Assembly (NCBI GenBank): GCA_002690725.1
Contig: NZFS01000006.1
Location: forward strand, 68,036 to 112,454
Length of the DNA: 44,419 nt
From: Gammaproteobacteria bacterium
GTDB taxonomy: Bacteria; Pseudomonadota; Gammaproteobacteria; Magnimaribacterales; D2472
Direction of reading: 5' to 3'
This document shows, piece by piece, positions 41,996 to 44,419 of the stretch. Within the stretch, counting starts at the first letter, position 1. The number at the start of each line of letters is the position of its first letter. The translations under genes were made by a program, and so were the position numbers. The notes beneath the pieces were generated by a model. The model searched no databases and had not been told where the DNA came from. It was given only the letters and a program-made list of their open reading frames with translations.

Positions 41996-43257
41996 CTATT
42001 TATTTTTTTTAATTTTAATTTTTGATATTGAATTTTCATCAAGTTCTAATATTTCAAAACGATAATTATTTACTTCAATACACAAATTTGCTTGAGGAAT
42101 TTGATCCAAATATTCTGTTATTAGTCCGTTAATAGTTTTAGAATTATCTTCAGGAATAGCCCAGTTTAAATAGTTATTTAAGTCCCTGATTTTTGAGTTG
42201 CCATCAGTTAAAATAGATCCATCTTTTAATTTAGTAAATTCTTTTCCAATTCTTCTTTGTCTCCACCAAATTTACCAGTAATCTCTTTGAATATATCTTC
42301 AACAGATATCAGGCCTTCAATCTCTCCGTATTCATCCACAACCAGTGCAATGCTTTGATTACTAGCTAGGAACTCTCTCAACTGTTTCATAAGTAATGTT
42401 GACTGAGAGACAAAATAAGTTTTTTGAAGAATCTCTTTAATATCTCTGATTTCTCCTTGATTTAATTTATCTAAAAACGAATATGAGTCTTTAAGATGCA
42501 AAATTCCTATCATATTATCAATTGTGTCTTGAAAAACTGGAAGTCTTGTATATTCAGTAGACTCGATTATCTTTGTAGCTTCAACATAATCTTGATTAAT
42601 GTCTATACCAATTATTTCTGATGTTGGAATCATAATATCTTCAACTATAAGCTCTTCCATTCCAAGAACTGATGAGAGCATTTTTCTGTATTGCTTTGGT
42701 ATAAGGTCACCAGACTCTTCTAAGAGTGTCTTAAGTTCTTCTGTATTAAGGTTTTCATTCAATGTTGCATCTTTTGCATCTAACTTGAATATTTTGAGGA
42801 TCTGCTTACTTAAAAAATTTGTAAGAAATATTAGTGGCTTAAAAACATAAACAAGAATCTTTAATATAAAAGATGATCTTGTTGCAAAACTTTCTGGTTT
42901 TATAGCAGCCATTGTTTTTGGAGTAATTTCTGAGAAAATCAAAATAATAATTGTAAGAATTACTGACCCAAGAACAACATTTCCACCAAAATAATTTAGC
43001 ATCATTATAGTTACTAATGCCGAAGCTAAAATGTTAGCAAAATTATTTCCTACCAGTATTGCAGAAAGCAACTGATCAGGTCTTTTTAGCAGATCTAAAG
43101 CTCTTTTGGCACTTGTTTTAGATTTTTTTGATAAGTTTCTAAGCTTAATTTTATTTGCAGCCATCATTCCAGTTTCTGAACCAGAAAAAAATCCACTAAG
43201 TATTAATAAAAATATAAGTGTTAAAAAAAGAATTAATAATGAGGGATCTTCTTGCAT
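41996..43257 (-). pseudogene. corB: CorB/CorC-type (DUF21-CBS-CorC_HlyC) membrane protein, frameshifted
   Basis: A CorB/YfjD-like protein in two frames. From ATG 43257 the first frame gives 343 residues: a DUF21 membrane domain (SGFFSGSETGMMAANKIKLRNL, LVGNNFANILAS, SEITPKTMAA) and a CBS pair (MIPTSEIIGID to EYGEIEGLISVEDIFKEITG). It stops at 42226-42228. The next frame holds the missing C-terminal CorC_HlyC domain (DGSILTDGNSKIRDLNNYLNW, TINGLITEYLDQIP), ending at 41996. Restoring one A in the minus-strand GAAAAG run at 42242-42245 joins them into about 420 residues, near the E. coli size. The family is linked to Mg/Co efflux or tolerance. A real mutation and a sequencing or assembly error cannot be told apart here. 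The longer upstream start at 43308 would run into ypjD and is rejected. Confidence 0.85.
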
Positions 43258-43823
43258 TATGCTCCAACTAAATATGAATTCATATAATATGCACCGAGAA
43301 CAGCACACATAGAAACAAAAAGACTTCTGGTCGCATATTTTATTGGAAAATTGAAGTACTTAACGCCAATAACTGTTATGACAAAAATGAGCCACGCAAT
43401 AAATGTAAAAAGCGCTTTAAAAATTATATTTGCTTAAAAAACTGTTTGTAAGCTGAAACCTGACACTAAAGAGAAAGATAAAAATAATAATCCAATACCA
43501 AGTAATTTGAACACAATTTTATAATTTTTCTCAACAGAAAAAGGCTCAATATTTATGAGTTCACCTTTTTTTAAATTCCTTATTTTTCTCTCAAGAATAC
43601 TAATTTCAGAATAGGCGATGAAAATAATAAGTAAGCTTAGTCCTGTGACCATAAAATGAATTGTTGGCATTAAAGATATCACTTCGTAAGCTGTGGAATA
43701 AATTAAAATATAGGAAATAACTGCTATAGAACTTGCTACGTAGAGCGATTTTTCCTGTTTGTAGAAAAATCTAATAATAAAGTATATGACTATACTTATA
43801 GTCACTTGGCTTATAAAACTCAT
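43257..43823 (-). pseudogene. ypjD: YpjD/CcsA-like membrane protein interrupted by an in-frame stop
   Basis: A membrane protein reading 129 residues from ATG 43823, then TAA at 43434-43436, then 58 more residues in the same frame to a stop at 43257-43259. The part after the stop reads ANIIFKALFTFIAW and continues to a hydrophobic C-terminus, matching the KAVLTFIAW-like region conserved in YpjD. The part before it has three hydrophobic spans and an IERK-like segment (SILERKIRN). The intact protein would be about 188 residues, shorter than E. coli YpjD (263), so the N-terminal half may be reduced as well. The TAATG overlap with the corB start shows the two were coupled. Stop-codon change and assembly error remain open. 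Confidence 0.75.
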
Positions 43824-43925: not shown

Positions 43926-44419
43926 ATGGTAATTATAAGATTAGCTAGAAGTGGAGCAAAAAAAAATCCATATTATTTTATCACTGTCGCAGATGAAAGA
44001 CGTCCAAGAGATGGTGCATTTATTGAAAGATTAGGCTTTTTTAATCCATCAGCAAGTGGAAATGAAGAAAGGTTAAGAATAGATCTTGAAAAAATTGAAG
44101 AATGGACATCAAAAGGTGCTCAAGTAAGTGATAGAGTCAATTCACTCGTTAAAGAAGCAAAATTAACTCCAGAAGAACTTGCAGCGAAGATTGAGGCAAA
44201 GAAGCTAAAAGCAGAAGCAAAAAAGGTAGCATTAGCAGAAAAATTAGCCAAAGAAGCGGCGGAAGCTGCTTCACAAGAAGAAGCACCAGCTGAAGAAGCT
44301 CCTGCTGAAGAAGAAGCACCAGCTGAAGAAGCTCCTGCCGAAGAAGCACCAGCCGAAGAAGCACTAATCGAAGAAGAAACTCCTGCTGAAGAAGAAGCAC
44401 CAGCTGAAGAAGCTCCTGC
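43926..44419 (+). CDS. rpsP: Ribosomal protein S16 with long Ala/Pro/Glu repeat tail (cut by window edge)
   Basis: The first 164 residues of bS16; the stop lies outside the window. Residues 1-80 are the normal S16 fold ([49 protein letters not shown]). S16 is usually about 80-90 residues, but here a Lys/Ala/Glu helix-like stretch follows (about 81-116). After that comes an acidic low-complexity tail of EEAPAEE-type repeats to at least residue 164. ffh, which precedes rpsP in E. coli, is absent; instead ypjD is divergent across 102 AT-rich bases with no clear promoter. rimM, trmD and rplS would be expected downstream. Confidence 0.95.
44277..44419 (+). repeat. Direct repeats encoding the S16 acidic tail
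   Basis: Three identical 29-base copies occur at 44277-44305, 44310-44338 and 44391-44419, each encoding EEAPAEEAP in the same frame. Degenerate copies lie between the last two. The array runs off the window edge, so its full length is unknown. Such in-frame repeats can change length by slippage or recombination. Confidence 0.9.

Follow-up and report, generated by a model that had tools for sequence, protein, structure and literature searches.

The window, that is, the whole stretch of 44,419 nucleotides that was analysed (G000:C7:68036-112454), is the final 44 kb of the 112,454-base contig C7 of a marine SAR86 bacterium. The source genome comprises 920,759 bases in 16 contigs, its completeness is 79%, and the GC content of the window is 32%. 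The contig is colinear with the nearest genome, G030, which has a DNA identity of 96.4% to the window locus. Close to the contig end, two overlapping genes are each interrupted by one lesion, namely a gene for a 188-aa membrane protein, designated the ypjD-position gene here, and corB. The locus contains the following features:

43926..44419, plus strand: rpsP (bS16), cut off by the contig end within its tail of Ala/Glu-rich repeats
43437..43823, minus strand: 5' part of the ypjD-position gene (188-aa membrane protein), ATG and 129 codons before the premature stop
43434..43436, minus strand: premature TAA of the ypjD-position gene, codon 130 of 189, a one-base difference from G030
43260..43433, minus strand: conserved tail of the ypjD-position gene, 58 codons 3' of the premature TAA
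43255..43259, minus strand: TAATG, the normal stop of the ypjD-position gene (TAA 43257-43259) overlapping the corB ATG
42226..43257, minus strand: corB frame as assembled, 343 aa, with CNNM and CBS-pair domains and no CorC domain
42238..42248, minus strand: one-base deletion in corB versus G030, in a T-run, at position 42242 in the alignment
41996..42241, minus strand: rest of corB (CorC_HlyC domain) in another frame, the conserved C-terminus

The mechanical list of open reading frames placed the corB start at a GTG farther upstream; the ATG at 43257 was adopted here because most relatives read start there.

The preliminary description had reported a TAA at 43434-43436 that is followed by 58 open residues, and re-reading of the minus-strand frame 43823..43257 verified both the coordinates and the count. 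The codon at this site specifies Ser or Thr in all 29 aligned relatives. The tail is identical to that of the intact G030 protein except at its positions 15 and 22, and the open frame past the TAA is therefore not due to chance. The structure model of the intact 188-aa protein (mean pLDDT 80.4) contains six long helices, and a stop at codon 130 would cut off the last two of these predicted helices. The model found no fold match in the PDB at an E value of 0.001 or better. A search of viral_contigs with 41 bases around the stop, with the variable base left open, yielded no match, and a near search in E. coli genomes met only a groL neighbour (38 bases).

The tail had previously been ascribed to the conserved C-terminus of YpjD. 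Its conservation was confirmed in the comparison with G030, but the assignment to YpjD is weakly backed, by a weak similarity and the gene position. E. coli YpjD, a cytochrome c assembly family protein, has 263 aa instead of 188 aa, and the similarity is local and extends over about 100 residues. In one BLASTP comparison it amounted to 29% over 101 columns (E 1e-4), and hhalign aligned 52 columns with a probability of 47%. The cut-off of Cytochrom_C_asm (PF01578; 29.9 bits) was not reached by the window fragment, which scored 11.2 bits, and among three intact relatives one scored 12.2 bits and two did not match at all. The name ypjD-position gene was chosen because the similarity to YpjD is weak and the Pfam cut-off was not reached. 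Like ypjD of E. coli, the gene is located directly upstream of corB and is divergent from rpsP; however, ffh lies between ypjD and rpsP in E. coli K-12, whereas the SAR86 locus has no ffh. Literature searches on YpjD with CorB and with magnesium yielded no tested function of YpjD. In other families of the order, the gene is missing between corB and rpsP in 12 of 15 regions (L117-L121, L123-L125, L127, L129-L131); of the remaining three, L122 and L128 lack rpsP within the segment that was read, and L126 breaks off too early. In G034 (L116), a 188-aa gene adjoins a corB gene of 418 aa.

For corB, a frameshift beside the stop in the ypjD-like gene had been described, with the two lesions 1.2 kb apart in genes coupled by TAATG. 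The frameshift was traced to a one-base deletion versus G030 near 42242, in a run that has only 4 T in the source genome, and the spacing was correct. A domain scan identified CNNM (PF01595) and the CBS pair (PF00571) both in the truncated window product and in G030. The CorC_HlyC domain (PF03471) occupies residues 343-419 of the G030 CorB and is missing from the 343-aa window product, which stops where this domain begins in G030. The window protein thus shares the CNNM domain and the CBS pair with the CorB/CNNM Mg2+ transporters (YfjD of E. coli), while CorC_HlyC is present in the intact relative; unlike in this family, the codons for CorC are shifted to another frame in this assembly. The best NCBIfam match was PRK11573, with 280 bits for the truncated window product alone compared to a cut-off of 475. 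In E. coli, too, corB is the neighbour of the ypjD position and rpsP. CorB proteins transported Mg2+ in liposomes, and an archaeal CorB without a CorC domain still bound Mg-ATP (PMC8242095). In Salmonella, corB is listed among the cobalt-resistance loci, although its deletion had no phenotype in the Mg assays of one study (PMC12421838).

Next, the locus was compared with that of relatives. When 60 relatives were searched at the DNA level, 44 genomes matched, in part weakly, and the frames were read in 30. In addition, a scan with the intact ypjD-position protein yielded 44 named loci, 37 labelled SAR86 and seven labelled Gammaproteobacteria, which include the 29 relatives with a whole ypjD-position gene among the 30 frame-read genomes. 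The isolate names of 26 of these loci begin with AG- and of four with AH-, which we take to denote single-cell genomes, and several loci are titled MAG. Both genes were intact in all 44 named loci, with lengths of 183-188 aa for the ypjD-position protein and 416-423 aa for CorB, including the nearest genome, G030. Among the 30 frame-read relatives, the ypjD-position gene was whole in 29, always with 187-188 aa, and corB was open to its normal end in all 30. L025 carries only part of the ypjD-position gene, and L021 is without the usual corB ATG. A conserved two-part protein was ruled out by the single frame in 44 of 44 named loci; a two-part YpjD in relatives had been named as a possible refutation of a lesion, and none occurred among the relatives read.

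The substitutions versus G030 were used to evaluate selection on the codons behind the lesions. The 58 codons behind the TAA contained five synonymous and two nonsynonymous changes, and the last 76 corB codons, a segment that starts a few codons behind the deletion, contained 11 synonymous and four nonsynonymous changes. For both tails pooled, 6 of 22 changes were nonsynonymous, compared to a neutral expectation of 73% that was derived from the observed substitution spectrum (binomial P about 1e-5). In the 334 corB codons before the lesion the fraction was 7 of 30 (P about 7e-8). In the ypjD-position gene, codons 1-129 were not distinguishable from neutral (five of eight nonsynonymous); four of these nonsynonymous changes could be polarised, and three of the five lie on the branch of the source genome. 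Since selection still seems to act on the codons 3' of each lesion, the breaks are either very recent or false. The counts mix the branches of the source genome and of G030 and therefore only bound the age: unless the breaks are false, they occurred long after the split. An old pseudogene was ruled out by the codon constraint behind the lesions. Decay with relaxed selection, one of the earlier proposals, was thus not borne out by the codon-constraint test, as constraint is kept behind both lesions and in corB before its lesion.

Other copies of corB or corC had also been suggested as a check. The only second corB match in the source genome was a 285-aa open frame that matches in the CBS region and has the size of CorC (G000:C4:14997-15464). 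Similar second corB matches exist in most of the relatives listed. No second copy of the ypjD-position gene was found in the source genome. Because this genome is 79% complete, other copies could be missed.

The two genes are not the only interrupted ones on the contig. Of 124 C7 frames of at least 100 aa with a match in G030, 115 were full length in both genomes. The nine others were the corB/ypjD-position pair, a kpsF/kdsD-family gene, a murD-like gene, two pieces of an alpha-E gene, one frame at the start of the contig, and two whose G030 counterparts run antisense to longer frames. The following additional lesions were located:

C7 11,765: one-base insertion in the kpsF/kdsD-family gene, T10 run
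C7 31,546: one-base indel in the murD-like gene, T9 run
C7 56,060 and 56,466: two insertions in the alpha-E gene

The frameshifts of these three genes sit in A/T runs of 7-10, and all three genes are intact in G030. The kpsF/kdsD-family and murD-like genes are full length in G019 and G031 as well, and the alpha-E gene was not found in the G019 and G031 stretches. A search of the source genome revealed no second full copy of the kpsF/kdsD-family or the murD-like gene. The first of these scored 335 bits for the KpsF/GutQ family (cut-off 203.7), with KdsD as the best match but below its own cut-off. For the second, MurD was the best match with 190 bits, and it is called murD-like because this is below the cut-off of 211.95; Pfam Mur_ligase_M was above its cut-off. 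The alpha-E gene scored 214.6 bits compared to a cut-off of 20.8. Well-studied bacteria cannot build their cell walls without MurD.

Contig C7 contains 130 Ns in runs of one or two. Within frames of at least 150 aa, 118 Ns were located; the third codon position held 82 of these, the first 24, and the second 12. Among the 88 Ns that could be aligned to each of G030, G019, and G031, 45 fell on sites that vary among these genomes, compared to 28% of all aligned sites, and the stretches of these three genomes that were compared contain no Ns. Six other contigs had 408 Ns in the 106,768 bases sampled. The Ns resemble strain differences that were left unresolved when several strains were merged into one consensus. 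Among the 44 named loci, Ns were present in only two, L096 (SAT84) and L104 (SP273), both of which are MAGs. Names with SAT, SP, or TMED presumably stem from Tara Oceans MAG studies. The scattered Ns of L096 and L104 resemble those of the source assembly, whose closest known counterparts would be strain-merged Tara Oceans MAGs, whereas two further loci with Tara-type names, L086 (SP266) and L094 (TMED225), contain no N. In the Tara Oceans MAG method, MEGAHIT contigs from different samples were joined with Minimus2 at 95% identity (PMC5769542, PMC5507172). The source genome may stem from this Tara Oceans/Minimus2 pipeline. Between about 5.5 and 45.5 kb of C7, the identity to G030 drops blockwise (85% and 90% versus 97% nearby), a pattern as from recombination or a composite contig.

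Both lesions are near the contig end, the stop in the ypjD-position gene at a distance of 984 bases and the corB deletion at 2,177 bases. The window contains no N, and the nearest N is more than 42 kb from either lesion. Private substitutions numbered 1,668 in the source genome and 1,804 in G030, with spectra that are alike. The last three 2-kb bins contained 21, 15, and 2 private substitutions here and 21, 13, and 2 in G030, and there was no local surplus in the final 2.4 kb. Base errors by oxidative damage were ruled out, as the private C>A changes numbered 45 here and 56 in G030.

In three further stretches outside C7, 49 of 57 matched G030 frames were full length. The other eight comprised five frames antisense to longer frames, one start difference at a 2-base gap, and two halves of a gene pair on C4. 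No broken gene was therefore seen in the approximately 55 kb aligned in these stretches, and the lesions may be peculiar to C7. The apparent gene fusion or stop-loss on C4 was rejected, as an N lies within the stop codon of the source genome. At L147:3989-5164, the stop that separates a LOG-family gene from the gene after it is masked by Ns in the source genome. All nine relatives searched had at least one stop inside the match, the position of which was read in G030 only.

Taken together, we consider it rather probable that both breaks are false and arose, close to the end of a contig, as errors in a metagenome assembly that merged several strains, which would make the finding an ordinary one. 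An assembly fault is favoured because the relatives are intact, the assembly contains Ns, other genes on C7 are frameshifted, the lesions are near the contig end, and the codons behind them still look selected. In the organism itself both genes would probably be intact and presumably co-transcribed. A 188-aa six-helix membrane protein would then be followed, via the TAATG overlap, by a CorB protein of about 420 aa with CNNM domain, CBS pair, and CorC domain and a putative role in Mg2+ transport, and the lesions would be expected to lack support in the reads. The bases are not generally bad, because the last 2.4 kb have no surplus of private substitutions. The local stretch of poor sequence that the preliminary description had offered as one explanation was therefore upheld only in part: an assembly fault is favoured, but neither Ns nor surplus substitutions mark the lesions. 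Its other explanation, decay of a Mg/Co homeostasis module, is opposed by the intact genes in all 44 loci and by the frameshifts in C7 genes without a known link to Mg. Several results speak against an artefact: private substitutions are not in excess, the window is free of Ns, and the approximately 55 kb outside C7 showed no broken gene. The lesion in the ypjD-position gene is, moreover, a nonsense substitution, a different kind of change from an indel error at a tract. Furthermore, AT-rich reduced genomes can harbour genuine frameshifts at A/T tracts of essential genes, as in Blochmannia, where transcriptional slippage may rescue them (PMC3017870), and the frameshift in the murD-like gene alone is therefore no proof of error.

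A possible but doubtful alternative is that both genes were truly and very recently inactivated, with the initial break in one gene making its operon partner worthless. The proximity of the two lesions, which lie within 1.2 kb in overlapping genes, would fit such a sequence of events, as would the missing surplus of substitutions that would mark bad sequence, the five of eight nonsynonymous changes in the first 129 codons, and the location of three of the four polarised changes on the branch of the source genome. However, constraint is not relaxed behind the lesions (6 of 22), nor in the part of corB that precedes the deletion (7 of 30), the lesions occur in none of the 44 named loci of relatives, and C7 also carries broken genes that have no known link to Mg. 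Transcriptional slippage at A/T tracts, the mechanism proposed for Blochmannia (PMC3017870), is very unlikely to restore the frames in the cell. The A/T runs of 7-10 at the other C7 frameshifts and the low GC content of the window (32%) would be compatible with slippage, but the corB run has only 4 T, a nonsense codon is beyond repair by this mechanism, none of the tract frameshifts is shared by G030, and the two of these genes that were found in G019 and G031 are intact there. By analogy with insect endosymbionts, a free-living, AT-rich, streamlined marine bacterium might carry real frameshifts at A/T tracts of envelope genes (murD-like, kpsF/kdsD family) that are rescued by slippage, with the pair of corB and the ypjD-position gene, whose lesions are beyond such a rescue, at the start of a real loss, a combination that we regard as highly improbable. 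The least likely reading is that only CorB is functionally affected, its CorC domain being trimmed while CNNM domain and CBS pair still work in a regulatory variant. The end of the 343-aa product at the start of CorC_HlyC and the Mg-ATP binding of the archaeal CorB (PMC8242095) would agree with it, but the out-of-frame CorC codons still look selected (4 of 15 nonsynonymous), the full-length frame is kept in 30 of 30 relatives and 44 of 44 loci, and the stop in the partner gene would be left without explanation. Searches of the literature on SAR86 pseudogenes, SAR86 streamlining, and MAG frameshift errors yielded nothing that bears on the lesions.

If the assembly is at fault, as we favour, the locus cautions against calling genes lost on the basis of one assembly before close relatives have been compared; C7 alone would have yielded five "lost" genes, the murD-like one included. 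If the loss were real, the start of the loss of a likely Mg-efflux pair would have been caught in a streamlined ocean bacterium.

The break of contig C7 coincides with the repeat in rpsP. In the loci of relatives in which the bS16 tail was inspected (n = 13; L116-L121, L123-L125, L127, L129-L131), it was Ala/Glu-rich or otherwise repetitive in 12, and L117 has nearly no tail. In family f3 (L118, L119, L127), the bS16 open frame comprises 325-381 aa and contains repeats of a AEAVTDVAEGAVDVAE-like motif.
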